From assembly GCA_025459425.1 (NCBI GenBank), contig JALOQF010000002.1, positions 1-62,633 on the forward strand: a DNA stretch of 62,633 nucleotides, in the 5' to 3' direction. Origin of the DNA: Myxococcaceae bacterium. Lineage in GTDB: Bacteria; Myxococcota; Myxococcia; Myxococcales; Myxococcaceae. The notes beneath the pieces were generated by a model that was given only the letters and a program-made list of their open reading frames with translations, was not told where the DNA came from and did not search any database. Numbering within the stretch: the stretch's first letter is position 1; the number at the start of each line of letters is the position of its first letter. A program made the position numbers and the translations under genes. Below are positions 28,978 to 34,289 of the stretch, piece by piece.

Positions 28978-29162
28978 CGTGCCAAACCTCCTCGCGCTGG
29001 CGCGAATGTCGCGGCAGGCATGACATCGACGTCACCGCCCCGCGGGCCATTCACCTCGATTTACGCCAGACAATTCATCAACTTCGAACGCAACCCTGAC
29101 ATCCGTTGTCCTCCGGAGACGGTCGACGCGTCATCGGGCCGGTGAAAGACTCGGCGCCCGTC

Positions 29163-29903
29163 ATGCCGAAGACCCGCGTCGCCGTCGTCGATGACCACCC
29201 GCTCGTGCGCGCCGGCCTGCGCGCGCTGCTCGAAGGGCAGGCCGACCTCGAGGTCGCCTGGGACGCCGAGCGGATCGATCAGGCGCGGCAGCACCTGAAG
29301 GCGGTCCCTGTCGACGTGATGCTGCTCGACCTCGAGTTCCGCGACGGCTCGGGGCTCGACCTGCTGCGCGAAGTCTCCGGGAGCGTTCCCGTGCTCGTCA
29401 TCACCTCACACACCACCGAGGCCTGGGCCATCACGGCCATGCGGCTGGGCGCCAGGGGCTACCTCCGCAAGACGGCGGCGCCCGGCACCGTGCTGGCGGC
29501 CGTGCGGTGCCTCGCAGAGGGCGGCTCGATGCTCGAGCCCGAGCTCGCGCGACAGCTCGCCGACGCGGCACGGCTTCCACTCGACGCCACGCCGGCGTTC
29601 GCGCAGCTGTCTGCCCGCGAGCTCGAGGTGCTTCGCCTCGTCGCGCTCGCGCTCCCCAACGACGCCATCGCGCGCCAGCTCTCGGTGAGCGAGAAGACGG
29701 TGAAGACGCACGTGTCGGCGCTGCTCTCGAAGCTGAACGTCGTCGACCGCACGGGCGCTGCCGTGCTCGCGTGGCGACTGGGCCTGGTGCGCGACGAGGT
29801 GGCCCAGCCCTCAGGGGAAGCGCCGCAACGACAGGACGAGCGGCGTCGGGCGCGAGGCGAGCTGGAGCCGGAGCCGGTCTCCAGCCGCACACGCCAGCGC
29901 TGA
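29163..29903 (+). CDS. NarL/LuxR-type response regulator
   Basis: 246 aa from ATG 29163. REC domain with DDHPLVRAG, phospho-acceptor Asp in VMLLDLEFRDGSG, Thr in VITSHT and Lys in YLRKTAAP. LuxR-type HTH at about 155-210: LSARELEVLRLVALALPNDAIARQLSVSEKTVKTHVSALLSKL. The C-terminal ~35 residues are Glu/Arg-rich and run 93 nt into the opposite-strand gene; NarL proteins normally end earlier, so the tail is probably a read-through extension. Its likely kinase is at 32922-34289, three genes away. Confidence 0.88.
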   Translation: MPKTRVAVVDDHPLVRAGLRALLEGQADLEVAWDAERIDQARQHLKAVPVDVMLLDLEFRDGSGLDLLREVSGSVPVLVITSHTTEAWAITAMRLGARGYLRKTAAPGTVLAAVRCLAEGGSMLEPELARQLADAARLPLDATPAFAQLSARELEVLRLVALALPNDAIARQLSVSEKTVKTHVSALLSKLNVVDRTGAAVLAWRLGLVRDEVAQPSGEAPQRQDERRRARGELEPEPVSSRTRQR

Positions 29904-30377
29904 CTGCCCGTCGATGGACAGCTCGCCGCCGCCGAGCACCTGCACCGAGAAGGTTCCCGCCTCGGCCCCGACACCGCCGCGCGCGCAAGCACACTGCGCC
30001 CCCTGCGCCACGCACGAGTAGCCGCCTGGCAGGCCTTCGACGTCGTCGCAGCGCCCGCTGGCGGAGCAGGCCCTCGGGCGGGCGAGCACCTCGCGCAACC
30101 GGCCCCGCAGCGCGCCCTCGCCGCGATCGCCCTGGAACCGGACGAAGCCGGCCACGGTGAGGTCGCGCGACGTCTGCGGCGCCTCGCACGTCGGCGCCGG
30201 GCCCTCGTCGGGCAACAGGCAGCTCGACTCGATGTACCAGGTGCCTTCGAGCGACCCCGCACACGCAGAGACCGGCGCGCACGCGGGCGTCACCGGCGTC
30301 TGGGGCGGCGGCCCACAGGCGACGAGCAGGAGGGCCGACACGAACGACGGCCGGCCGCGGCGACGTCGACGAAGCAT
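29811..30377 (-). other. Alternative start for a separate lipoprotein inside the fused frame
   Basis: In-frame ATG at 30377 (in AVMLRRRRR). From here the product is a 188-residue lipoprotein with a basic n-region, the hydrophobic core SFVSALLLVA and lipobox VAC, followed by GPPPQTP and a Cys-rich domain with CAGSLEGTWYIESS. This reads as a complete, well-formed lipoprotein. Confidence 0.5.
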
Positions 30378-31328
30378 GACGGCCGCCGCGAGCAGCACCA
30401 GCGGCACACCCGGCGACGCGGCGCAGGACAGCGGCGAGCGGGTCGCGTTGCCGCGGGCCGCCGACAGAAAGGCGTTGCCGCAATACCCGTTGTCGATGGT
30501 GCACCCCTCACGCCGCTCCAGCCAGCCCGCCATCACGCGGTTGGCGCCCGCCGGTCCCTCGTCGATGAGGGCCTCGATCCACTCCAGGCTGGCCACGCGC
30601 GCCGCCTGGGCCGCTGGCGCCCCGACGCCATCACACTCGTCGAGGCCAGACGAGTGCCGCAGGCCATCACGCGCCTCGTCGTGGGTGCTCGACAGCGCGT
30701 CGACGAAGTTGAGCACGTGGTGCACCTGTCGGAAGTCAGGGCTCCGCAGGCTGTGGGCGAACGAGTCCTGGAGGGCGTGCAGCGCCTCGCCGAGGTGGAA
30801 GGGCCCACGGAGCACCTCGACGTCGACCTCGCCGTAGAAGTCGAGCGTGAGCCGCACCGTGAGCGTGTCGTCGAGATGCCTGAGGGCCTCGTCGAGCCGG
30901 CCCTCGATGTGCTGTCGGGTGGCCTCGAGCGCGGCCCCGTCACCGTCGGGCCCGTCGTCGCCCGGAGCGCGCAGGGCGTGGGCGCGCTGGTCGAGCGGGT
31001 CGAGGTGGATGTCGCGGGTCCGGCTGAGGTCGAAGAGCGAGTGGGAGCGCGTGTCGGGCGCGCGCACGCCCAGCAACAGGCTGACGATGATGGCGCGCTT
31101 CTCGTCGTCGTAGGCCTCGAGCCCGAACTCGCGAGAGAACTGGTCACTCAGCTTCTCCCACGCCGCGCCGCGCGGGCGCTGCTGGCCACGAAACGGCAGG
31201 TCGGCCAGGTACGAGCCGTACACCGCGGCCGTGAGCCGCTCGTGGCAGCCGGGCGAGAAGCCCGTACCGATGCTGAAGGCGTGGGCGCTCGACGCGAGCA
31301 GGAGGACGAGCGTCGCCGCGCGCTTCAC
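29811..31328 (-). CDS. MYXO-CTERM secreted protein fused in frame to a lipoprotein
   Basis: 505 aa from GTG 31328, overlapping the upstream stop (GTGA). Signal peptide VLLLASSAHA, then FSIGTGFSPGCHERLTAAVYG and HLGEALHALQDSFAHSLRSPDF, which resemble zinc-dependent phospholipase C-like proteins (His-rich site). Near residue 295-325 comes a MYXO-CTERM-like tail: SPLSCAASPG, TM PLVLLAAAVMLRR, then a run of Arg. This should be the end of a protein, but the frame continues into FVSALLLVACGPPP, a lipobox, and a Cys-rich domain to 29811. A loss of a stop codon, or a frameshift, or two separate proteins expressed from one frame would explain it. Confidence 0.7.
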   Translation of the reverse strand: MKRAATLVLLLASSAHAFSIGTGFSPGCHERLTAAVYGSYLADLPFRGQQRPRGAAWEKLSDQFSREFGLEAYDDEKRAIIVSLLLGVRAPDTRSHSLFDLSRTRDIHLDPLDQRAHALRAPGDDGPDGDGAALEATRQHIEGRLDEALRHLDDTLTVRLTLDFYGEVDVEVLRGPFHLGEALHALQDSFAHSLRSPDFRQVHHVLNFVDALSSTHDEARDGLRHSSGLDECDGVGAPAAQAARVASLEWIEALIDEGPAGANRVMAGWLERREGCTIDNGYCGNAFLSAARGNATRSPLSCAASPGVPLVLLAAAVMLRRRRRGRPSFVSALLLVACGPPPQTPVTPACAPVSACAGSLEGTWYIESSCLLPDEGPAPTCEAPQTSRDLTVAGFVRFQGDRGEGALRGRLREVLARPRACSASGRCDDVEGLPGGYSCVAQGAQCACARGGVGAEAGTFSVQVLGGGELSIDGQSALACAAGDRLRLQLASRPTPLVLSLRRFP

Positions 31329-31858
31329 AACACGCCCTCGAGGCCGACGGTGCTGCGGAACTGCACGTCGACGAGCGGAATACCGCGGAGCACCGGCGCG
31401 ACGATGCTCACCGACAACGCGCTCAGCGTCACCCGCAGCGCTCCCACGCGCCACGCGAACTGCGCGGGGGTGAGGTCGACGAAGAGCCCCACGCTGCCCG
31501 GCGCGTCGAGCAGCGTCCGGGTCAGCAGCACCGAGGGGCCGAGCCGCAGCGAGGCACGCACCCGGTCTTCGGCCCACCGCAGCTCGGGGCCGACGCCGAC
31601 GTTGAGCGCACCTCGAAGCACCTGCGCGCGAGAGAGCTCCGTCGCGACCCACCCGTTCCATTCGACCCCGCCCACGACGCCCCAGCGCTCCGCGGCCCGC
31701 CAGCCGCCCCCCACGCCTCCGCCGAACCGCACCGCGAGGAGCGAGCCTGCCCCCAGGCCGCTCAGGAGCGTGCCGTGCCCCGAGCCCGTGAGGAACCACG
31801 ACGCCTTCGCCTCGTGCGACAGCAACAGCCACAGCAGCACCAACAGCCGAATTCGCAT
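31325..31858 (-). CDS. Small outer-membrane-like protein
   Basis: 177 aa. Signal peptide (LLVLLWLLLSHEAKA) then alternating strand sequence rich in Gly, Val, Leu and Trp (GWRAAERWGVVGGVEWNGW, GVGPELRWAEDRVRASLRLG) with a last residue Leu, typical of a small beta-barrel. It is the first gene of the two-gene unit with the MYXO-CTERM gene (GTGA overlap). No clear family. Confidence 0.65.
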   Translation of the reverse strand: MRIRLLVLLWLLLSHEAKASWFLTGSGHGTLLSGLGAGSLLAVRFGGGVGGGWRAAERWGVVGGVEWNGWVATELSRAQVLRGALNVGVGPELRWAEDRVRASLRLGPSVLLTRTLLDAPGSVGLFVDLTPAQFAWRVGALRVTLSALSVSIVAPVLRGIPLVDVQFRSTVGLEGVL

Positions 31859-31966
31859 CGCACGACGGTACCGGCGCGCCGGCTGGCCGTCCTCGGCCCC
31901 TGGACCGAGGAGCGCGTCGGCCTGGCGACCGATTCGGCCCTGGGTTCGAAGGCGTACGACGAGGTC

Positions 31967-32749
31967 ATGACCCTGCTCCGCCCCTGCGCCCTCCTCGTCG
32001 TCTTCCTCCTGTCGGCCTGTGCCCCGCCGGAGTGCTCGACCGGCTCGTACCTCGAGGGGGGCAACGTCGTGACGTGCTTCGGCACCAGAACGCTGACGCT
32101 CCCGGCGAGTGAGGAAGCGCGGAGCCTGTTCTCCGAGCGGCTGCGGCCGCTGGGCGTCGACCCCGACGCGCTGCCGGCGACCTACTATTTCCTCCCGCGA
32201 GAGGCCGCGTCGGGGCCGAACGCACGGGCGCTCTTCAAGCCCCGCCGCGGCGCCATGGGCCGCGAGTTGCTGGTCGAGCTCAACGAGGCCTTCGTCGAAG
32301 CCGCCGACGATGGCGCCCTCGTGCTCGCGCTCGTCCACGAATACGGCCATCTGGCCCAGTACCAGCGAGGCGAGCCCGCCGGTGACGAGCTACAGCAGCG
32401 GCTCTGCGCCGGGGCGTCTGACAGCGCCTGCGAGGCCGCGGTGCTGGCTCACCTGCAGCGCATGGAGCGAGACGCCGACGCCTTCCTCGTCGAGCGAATC
32501 GGCCGGTGGCCGATGGGCCTGTCACCCGGCTTCGACCCGTGGGCGCTCGTCGACCTCATCAACTCGACGGAAGCCGGCCCCAGCTACCCGCCCAACCCGG
32601 AGCGCATCGCCCCCATCGCCGCCGCGCTCGAGGCCCGGGGCCTGACACGTGCCACCGCCACCCGCGCGCGCACGCTGCTCGACCAACTCCCCGCCCTCGC
32701 CGCGCCCGCAGCCGAGGCGCTCCGCCGGCAGGGCGGCGTTCCCCGCTGA
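31967..32749 (+). CDS. HExxH metalloprotease-like lipoprotein
   Basis: 260 aa from ATG 31967. Signal with lipobox LSAC. Zinc motif in LVHEYGHLAQYQRG (His124, Glu125, His128) with a downstream acidic candidate (MERDADAFL) for the third ligand. The arrangement resembles gluzincin-type peptidases (M48-like) but the protein is short and has no TM. A cell-surface peptidase is likely; the substrate is unknown. Confidence 0.8.
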   Translation: MTLLRPCALLVVFLLSACAPPECSTGSYLEGGNVVTCFGTRTLTLPASEEARSLFSERLRPLGVDPDALPATYYFLPREAASGPNARALFKPRRGAMGRELLVELNEAFVEAADDGALVLALVHEYGHLAQYQRGEPAGDELQQRLCAGASDSACEAAVLAHLQRMERDADAFLVERIGRWPMGLSPGFDPWALVDLINSTEAGPSYPPNPERIAPIAAALEARGLTRATATRARTLLDQLPALAAPAAEALRRQGGVPR

Positions 32750-32921
32750 CGCGCCGACCGGGTGGCCGGACCGGGCGAACGTGAAGCGTTGCGAGCAGAC
32801 CGAGGCGCGACGAGAGAAGCTGCTGGCGACCACCTGACCGAGGAGCAACGATGGGCTGTGGCGCACCTGGCGCTCCCTCGACGAGAGGTCACTTGTTCGG
32901 CGCTCTGGAGTGACGGCACGC

Positions 32922-34289
32922 ATGGGTTCGACGCAGTGGCGCTCCGTTCGGGTTGGGCTGGCCTTCGCGTGCGTCGCGGCCGTGGCGACGCTGTGCACCG
33001 AGTTCCTCGGCTGGCTGGCCATCGATCGCTTCGTGCACGACGAGCACGAGGGCATCCCGCCGCTCGTCGTCGCGGCCGTCGAGAGCCGTGCCGCGACCTC
33101 GAGGCCGCTGCTGGCCGGCGCTTCCGAGGCCGCCGTCGCCGCGTGGGAGCGCTCGCTGGACGACGCCTTCTGGCCGCTGCTCAACGGCGCGGTGGTGATG
33201 GTGGGCGAAGGCACGGCACACGCCAGGCTCGTGCGCGGAGCCGCCGTCGATGCCCCGCGCGACTGCACCTCGCCGCTCGAGACGGACACCGGCGACGAGG
33301 GAACGACGACGCGCTCCTGCCGTCGCGGCGCGCGCTGGTGGGTCGGCACGTCGCTCGGTGCGAACGACACCCTCGTCGTCGAGCTCGAGCCCGCCACCAG
33401 CGTGGGCCTCATCCGGGTGGGGTGGGTCGTCTTGTCGGTCGTCTCCCTCGTGCCGGTGCTGGGGGTGTCGTTCCCCGTCGGCTTCGCGCTCGGGCTCGCG
33501 CTGACCCGGCGAGCCCGCCGGCGCGTCGAGCGGGTGGTGACCGCGGCCGCCTCGTGGAACGAGGCGCGCTCGTGGGTGCCCATCGAGGACGGGCGCGACG
33601 ACGAGCTCGGCTTCCTCGCGCGCACGCTCGACACGATGGGTCGCCGCTTCAATGAAGCGCTCGAGGGGGCTCGTCGACGCGGCGCGGCCGCCGAGCGCAG
33701 CCGGCTCCTCGACGACCTGCATGATCACTCGAAGCAGAGCGTCTTTGCCGCCCGGATGATGCTCGGCCAGCTCGCGGCGCGCGCGTCGGCCGACCCGGCG
33801 CTGTCCGAGCTCACCGACCGCGCCAGCGAGGCGCTCGGCGTCGCGTTGAACGAAATGAGCCGCCTCACCCACCCTGACGATGCGCCCGCCGCGCTGCGCG
33901 CCGAGCACCTGCGCGACGCCGTGGCAGCCGTCGCGCACTGGTGGGGCCGCCCCATCGCCGTCGACGGAGCCGACTTCGAGCTGGCGACCTCGGCGGCCGA
34001 GGTGCTCGCCATCACCCGAGAGGCCCTCTCGAACGCGATGCGGCATGCGCCCCGAGCCCACGTCACCGTCTCGTGGACGATGGAGAAAGCGACGTTCGTG
34101 CTGACCGTCACCGACGACGGCCCGGGCTTCGACCCCGCGCGGGCCGGCCGGCCGACGTCAGGGCTCGCCACCATGCGGCGCAGGGCCACCGGCCTCGGCG
34201 GCGCACTCGAGCTCACCTCGAGCCCCGGCGGCACCCACGTCCGGCTCAGCCTCCCGGCGCTCGAGGCTGCTCGAGCAGCTCCACGGTGA
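32922..34289 (+). CDS. NarL-type sensor histidine kinase
   Basis: 455 aa from ATG 32922 (GGAG upstream; GTG 32910 is also possible). TM1 (GLAFACVAAVATLCTEFLGWLAI) and TM2 (VGWVVLSVVSLVPVLGVSF) bracket an extracellular domain with two Cys. HAMP-like linker, then HisKA_3 box ERSRLLDDLHDHSKQ with the phospho-His, and HATPase (EALSNAMRHAPRAHVTVSW, DDGPGFDP, SGLATMRRRATGLGG). Probable partner of the NarL regulator at 29163. The C-terminal end overlaps the convergent receptor gene by 44 nt. Confidence 0.87.
   Translation: MGSTQWRSVRVGLAFACVAAVATLCTEFLGWLAIDRFVHDEHEGIPPLVVAAVESRAATSRPLLAGASEAAVAAWERSLDDAFWPLLNGAVVMVGEGTAHARLVRGAAVDAPRDCTSPLETDTGDEGTTTRSCRRGARWWVGTSLGANDTLVVELEPATSVGLIRVGWVVLSVVSLVPVLGVSFPVGFALGLALTRRARRRVERVVTAAASWNEARSWVPIEDGRDDELGFLARTLDTMGRRFNEALEGARRRGAAAERSRLLDDLHDHSKQSVFAARMMLGQLAARASADPALSELTDRASEALGVALNEMSRLTHPDDAPAALRAEHLRDAVAAVAHWWGRPIAVDGADFELATSAAEVLAITREALSNAMRHAPRAHVTVSWTMEKATFVLTVTDDGPGFDPARAGRPTSGLATMRRRATGLGGALELTSSPGGTHVRLSLPALEAARAAPR

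Follow-up and report, generated by a model that had tools for sequence, protein, structure and literature searches.

What does a MYXO-CTERM sorting tail do in the middle of a reading frame? Cleavage of the tail by the myxosortase MrtX has been shown experimentally (PMC11980579), and its typical position is at the C terminus. We analyzed a 62,633-nucleotide stretch of DNA from a Myxococcaceae bacterium, hereafter called the window. In one of its genes, about 180 residues continue in frame behind such a tail, and the motif therefore lacks the C-terminal position. The question is whether this ORF gives one protein or two, and by what route.

The gene occupies 29811..31328 on the minus strand. It opens at GTG 31328 and ends at the stop codon 29811-29813, for a total of 505 codons. 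The original prediction gave these coordinates correctly and omitted the strand. The first 17 residues (31278..31328), which end in SSAHA, read as a signal peptide with a putative cleavage site at that point. They are followed by a body of about 280 residues (residues 18 to 300; 30429..31277), which alignment, a weak PF00882 match, and an AlphaFold2 model mark as a helical domain. The internal MYXO-CTERM-like tail comes next (30357..30425), with Cys302, a hydrophobic helix, and an Arg run up to R324. The second signal, with the h-region FVSALLLVA and the lipobox LVAC338, lies at 30315..30344 and was recognized by sequence and by the signal rule described below; the first base of the Cys338 codon is 30317. 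A cysteine-rich domain then runs from Cys338 to Pro505 (29814..30317).

The junction itself is LSCAASPGVPLVLLAAAVMLRRRRRGRPSFVSALLLVACGPPP. It passes from LSC302 through the hydrophobic helix, the Arg run, and the h-region to C338GPPP. The Arg-rich stretch R320-R326 (30351..30371) is common to the tail and to the n-region of the second signal, and it may act in both. The elements that had been read from the ORF earlier, namely, a signal peptide, a MYXO-CTERM-type tail, an in-frame second lipoprotein signal, and an Arg run belonging to both signals, are all present. The comparison confirmed the observation: within a single frame, the gene carries the code for one exported protein directly followed by that for another. 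Because the parts lie in one frame, they can form one polypeptide whose Arg run serves two signals. Overlapping reading frames were considered and ruled out for the window, where one frame contains both elements; such overlap is true only of the ATGA gene pairs described below.

The start of the gene overlaps the end of an upstream gene by GTGA. This upstream gene (31325..31858, minus strand) encodes a 177-aa protein predicted to be a β barrel. We compared the neighborhood with a contig from the same genus (L054), and blastn aligned only the barrel-body-lipoprotein module, with 71% identity over 1,776 columns. On either side of the module are two ORFs that look by eye like a response regulator (29106-29903, plus strand) and a histidine kinase (32910-34289, plus strand); neither had a blastn match in that contig. 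A divergent ORF at 31775-32749 on the plus strand begins like a lipoprotein (MTLLRPCALLVVFLLSAC) and contains an HEYGH motif; it is perhaps a metalloprotease. A consensus search detected no promoters or terminators.

The window tail matched positions 2 to 27 of the TIGR03382 model with 12.4 bits, short of the 15.85-bit cut-off, and it has no Gly before the Cys. The internal tail of a same-genus relative (L008) scored 20.6 bits in a genome search and 15.0 bits, just under the cut-off, in a whole-protein scan. The Cys302 column is Cys in all 38 aligned bodies, though it is mid-chain in 25 of those rows. Behind it are the hydrophobic helix, modeled by AlphaFold2 at residues 308 to 322, and the Arg-rich run. 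On these sequence features, the window tail is a divergent MYXO-CTERM with a sub-threshold match. The same genome encodes a MrtX myxosortase (L082; NF040593, 293.2 bits, cut-off 180).

The whole window protein had no match above the cut-off in Pfam or NCBIfam. The original prediction had called the body hydrolase-like. A PF00882-type similarity does exist, but it is weak (E = 0.3; 11.4 bits against a Pfam cut-off of 26.8), and PF00882 matched 4 of 19 relatives with a best E value of 0.018. H29, H117, H184, D188, H192, and H225 are invariant or nearly so among the aligned bodies, a His/Asp pattern that we take to recall zinc phospholipase C. These features weakly suggest a zinc-dependent phospholipase C-like helical domain. 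Profile searches gave no significant match of the body to zinc-dependent phospholipase C or S1-P1 nuclease. A PDB sequence search found no convincing relative of the window protein, and a Foldseek search with the window model had no match to the body among the best 50 of 530. Selection on the body was estimated at a dN of 0.26 and a dS of 0.75.

The second half has the features of a lipoprotein signal (n-region RRRRRGR, h-region FVSALLLVA, and LVAC338), with similar features in L002 and L060. L002 comes from another species of the same genus; it is full length, 56 to 58% identical, and likewise without a stop codon. From Met318 onward, the two lipoprotein halves are 47% identical, and L002 keeps all 11 cysteines that this half has in the window. 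The dN and dS for this half were 0.57 and 0.87, indicating weaker constraint than on the body. Among the Foldseek matches to the second half of the window model, lipocalin-like structures were ranked (5cyb and 3ge2, with target-normalized TM scores of 0.64 and 0.66), none with an E value of ≤0.001. By prediction, the second half is a lipocalin/FABP-like β barrel.

To see how far the arrangement extends, we collected relatives of the body from three partly nested genome sets, with matches in 7 of the 40 nearest relatives, 22 of 145 genomes of the order, and 31 of 195 genomes of the phylum. Scanning named genome contigs yielded another list of 19 loci, which are partly the same records. Duplicates were dropped (L011-L016, L023, L025, L026, L033-L036, L038, L042-L044, L059, L065, L067, L069, L070, L072, L075, and L077), as were two loci that reach a contig end before the junction (L007 and L064), weak distant matches with no visible tail (L027-L032, L045, and G154:C30), and the partial G152:C106. 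This left 39 readable loci, including the window.

In 26 of the 39 loci, the frame stays open past the Arg run and enters a second export signal. These are loci rather than genomes, since G000 and G002 contribute two each, and those with family codes fall into six family groups (f1, f4, f5, f7, f11, and f17). The domain behind the tail is a lipoprotein in three (the window, L002, and L060) and a member of one barrel family in 23. The other 13 bodies end with a stop codon, so fusion is not required. One further locus, L056, is cut 15 residues past the tail and is open and signal-like to the contig end; we counted it as fused in the tree and kept it outside the 26. Two fused loci, L010 and L024, are incomplete (L024 with a run of N) and were left out of the tree. 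Fused loci had a higher mean GC content than stop loci (0.691 versus 0.611; P = 0.001, uncorrected for kinship), with fused loci reaching down to 0.56. Therefore, loss of the stop codon may partly follow base composition.

The upstream barrel of the window and the barrels fused in the 23 relatives belong to one family (hhalign probability, 98.7%; E = 3.1e-16); the window's own barrel gene was placed there by profile homology only. For one fused relative, the modeled structure is similar to OprF, OmpA, and NspA, with E values of 0.006 to 0.05, none of them ≤0.001, and target-normalized TM scores of 0.52 to 0.64.

Gene order divides the tree of 38 bodies. In clade 1 (22 rows), the body comes first and the barrel after it, and 19 rows are fused and 3 have a stop. 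Clade 2 has 16 rows; 14 of them carry a barrel gene upstream of the body, and the remaining two bodies start at contig ends. Four rows of clade 2 are fused to a lipoprotein (L056 included), two to a second barrel, and 10 have a stop. L066 and L068 have two barrels each, one in a gene upstream of the body and a second one fused behind the tail. A separate tandem was seen in L048 (G147:C369), where a frame at 1351-2490 on the reverse strand, upstream of the body, holds two barrel domains. The tree contains at least five changes between the fused and stop states, three of which are forced by well-supported branches. The lipoprotein-fused rows cluster weakly (64/48).

The original prediction had asked whether relatives carry two separate genes with a stop between them, and such relatives exist. 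The body stop overlaps the start of the barrel by ATGA in L019 and L020, and that of a lipoprotein by ATGA (MNRQTQRRWAVLAAGLFLVSGC) in L071. In L057 (G152:C197), the body stop overlaps a long ORF (MNQDHDTLLRPRASD...) in the same way. The barrel start of L053 lies 30 bases past the stop or upstream of it, and an exported-looking ORF begins 26 bases past the body stop in L049. No exported gene was seen directly behind the body in the remaining seven stop loci. A small indel at an ATGA overlap would yield the fused state.

The same junction occurs in genes outside this family. The window genome has 54 matches to TIGR03382 at E ≤ 10, and eight of them have more than 100 in-frame residues behind the match. 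One of the eight (C258) is not a tail. The other seven continue into an export signal; they are on contigs C329, C495, C250, C561, C106, and C300 and in the window. A paralogue on C18 (L009), missed by the TIGR03382 model, is the eighth such gene in this genome. The genes on C329 and C495 have a second MYXO-CTERM tail at their end. In these two genes (G000:C329:975-3719, L137, and G000:C495:16086-18587, L133), the two tails are about 800 to 900 residues apart, and the first tail is followed by a signal peptide or a lipobox; their G002 counterparts are on C559 and C357 and are about 80% identical. Counterparts with the same junction were found in G002 for C329, C495, and C300, with 78.8, 81.3, and 79.5% identity before the tail. 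None of the six other junction genes matched the window body by blastp at E ≤ 1e-4. The C106 gene is related to the C300 gene, the second half of the C250 gene is common to junction genes of G100 and G012, and only about 49 residues before the tail are visible in C561 because the contig begins there.

We also read the matches in three other genomes: all 25 in G100, 30 of 36 in G002, and 30 of 38 in G012. Among these 85 matches, 71 were terminal, 10 were internal with a signal next, 2 were not tails, and 2 had a short continuation or a contig end. Three genes (G100:C1:3856938, G012:C1:12833484, and G012:C1:9930636) have an internal tail, then a signal peptide, and related second halves, and are perhaps of the MXAN_5598 type.

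A crude, ad hoc signal rule was then applied to the residues behind the Arg run. It found a signal peptide in frame after 38 of 41 internal tails (25/26 in the family and 13/15 in other genes), compared with 3 of 82 wrong-frame readings; at random downstream positions in the family, 162 of 1,040 were positive. The three failing junctions (L006, C561, and G002 C338) look like signals by eye. Three TIGR03382 matches that continue far in frame but are without a Cys-helix-Arg tail (G000:C258, G100:7118954, and G012:4804090) were set aside from this test for that reason. With them included, the count is 39 of 44, as C258 passes the rule and the other two fail.

How would such a chain be handled? 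We think that the gene probably makes one precursor with two export signals, which would be cut twice, at the tail by the myxosortase and at the lipobox by signal peptidase II. In this scheme, the first signal peptide would start export of the body. The tail helix would halt in the inner membrane and leave the Arg run in the cytoplasm. The Arg run would then act as the n-region of the second signal, and the rest of the chain would be sent back across the membrane. MrtX would cut just past Cys302, which would probably be lipidated first, and the body would be freed for the cell surface. Lgt and LspA would process the chain at Cys338, yielding a lipoprotein of its own, and the short segment of two helices left between the cuts would be discarded. 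The fusion would fix the two products at 1:1, and a benefit of this kind may explain it; the alternative arrangement would be two genes that overlap by ATGA, as in traAB. The AlphaFold2 confidence is low at the junction (below 50 for residues 326 to 347), so the model gives no support for a topology.

The continuous frame and its two hydrophobic segments could also describe an uncut fusion, in which the two segments form a membrane hairpin and the product is an inner-membrane protein with two periplasmic domains. We consider this unlikely. The second domain is a predicted outer-membrane-type barrel in 23 of the 26 fused loci, and anchorage to a hairpin in the inner membrane would be expected to keep it from the outer membrane. 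Moreover, the tail Cys is retained in every one of the 38 aligned bodies, and most of the second segments close with a site of the signal-peptidase type.

The original prediction raised a different route, in which the second protein is initiated at ATG 30377 (Met318; 30375..30377). Read-through of the body would then add a useless extension, and the second initiation would make the functional lipoprotein. The ATG does exist, and a well-formed lipoprotein signal follows it. The second signal would be N-terminal on a translated chain only if Met318 initiates. However, L002, the nearest lipoprotein-bearing relative, has CTC in this place, and L060 has CTG, a rare start at most. The same-genus relative L008 has no ATG, GTG, or TTG between the tail Cys and the end of the second signal, and in L040 and L060, read manually, no start codon at the junction would be followed by a basic n-region. 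Upstream of ATG 30377 we found no Shine-Dalgarno core of those tested, whereas GAGG precedes GTG 31328; a looser 6-base comparison scored 4 of 6 for ATG 30377, GTG 31328, and the barrel start alike. An ATG stands close before the second signal in L004, L010, L017, and L039, so internal starts may be used in some relatives, and the ATGA-overlapping starts of L019, L020, and L071 also fit a second initiation. Two starts would leave the missing stop in 26 of the 39 loci unexplained. Initiation at 30377 is thus quite improbable. Of the proposal that one stretch of DNA serves two signals, the shared Arg run stands and a separate start of the second protein is disfavored. Because ATG 30377 is not conserved and L008 has no start codon there, a continuous polyprotein is favored over internal initiation. 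Read-through as a single chain is the simpler general reading, although not a proof.

A stop codon lost through an assembly or sequencing error, for which the origin of the window in a 651-contig assembly might speak, is most improbable: the fused state recurs in the 26 loci and six family groups, and the junction type also occurs in the single-contig genomes G100 and G012, which rules out a loss in a single assembly. The joint thus looks like a real arrangement rather than a misread stop codon.

A single precursor with two cuts would have wider implications. There are about even grounds for and against the view that polyproteins are a routine way for Myxococcota to produce a surface protein together with its envelope partner. 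A MYXO-CTERM tail with a type I or type II signal directly behind it would then be a reusable two-cut linker that sends one chain to two destinations, in several different genes per genome, with repeated fusion and fission. If true, this linker would show the myxosortase acting inside chains and would account for equal production of the two partners. It would also provide a size-shift reporter for the myxosortase and for the postulated enzyme that lipidates the tail Cys. MYXO-CTERM searches that rely on the C-terminal position miss candidates of this kind.

To our knowledge, bacterial polyproteins cut at export signals have rarely been described. The cytochrome b/c1 precursor FbcH of Bradyrhizobium is one precursor that is cut at an internal signal peptide to give two proteins. 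Unlike the window protein, FbcH has no sorting tail and belongs to a respiratory complex.

A close likeness within the myxobacteria is MXAN_5598 of Myxococcus xanthus, which has an internal MYXO-CTERM motif followed by an outer-membrane barrel; the report calls such internal motifs rare, and its authors suggest that genes were fused and that the N-terminal portion is processed (PMC11980579). MXAN_5598 was also listed among proteins from outer-membrane vesicle samples (PMC4158809). As in the window, the motif lies inside an ORF, and a barrel follows it, as in 23 fused relatives. However, MXAN_5598 is described with an adhesin body and a barrel plus an OmpA domain, and we saw no second signal peptide described for it. 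In the window family, the body is a different one, the partners are of two kinds, and the pattern extends across the family.

In the TraA/TraB operon, the gene for a MYXO-CTERM protein is followed by a partner gene that overlaps it by four bases (PMC3325183). The body and partner genes of L019, L020, and L071 have the same four-base overlap. Unlike the window, TraA and TraB are two genes with a stop, and the likeness noted here is one of gene arrangement. TraA has been co-expressed with MrtX in E. coli. HVO_0405 of Haloferax volcanii is, like the window protein, a domain fusion with a central sorting site, and cutting at that site was shown experimentally and depends on the archaeosortase (PMC7157517). 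It differs in that it uses an archaeal PGF-CTERM and ArtA, and is described as strain-specific (PMC7157517); we saw no second signal described for it.

In the open-access literature, which leaves most subscription papers outside its coverage, we found no MYXO-CTERM polyprotein and no myxococcal polyprotein that fuses a sorting signal to a signal peptide. What appears to be new is the recurrence of the junction, within a family as well as in further genes, its two kinds of partner, and the type I or type II signal placed directly behind the tail, with the Arg run shared between them.
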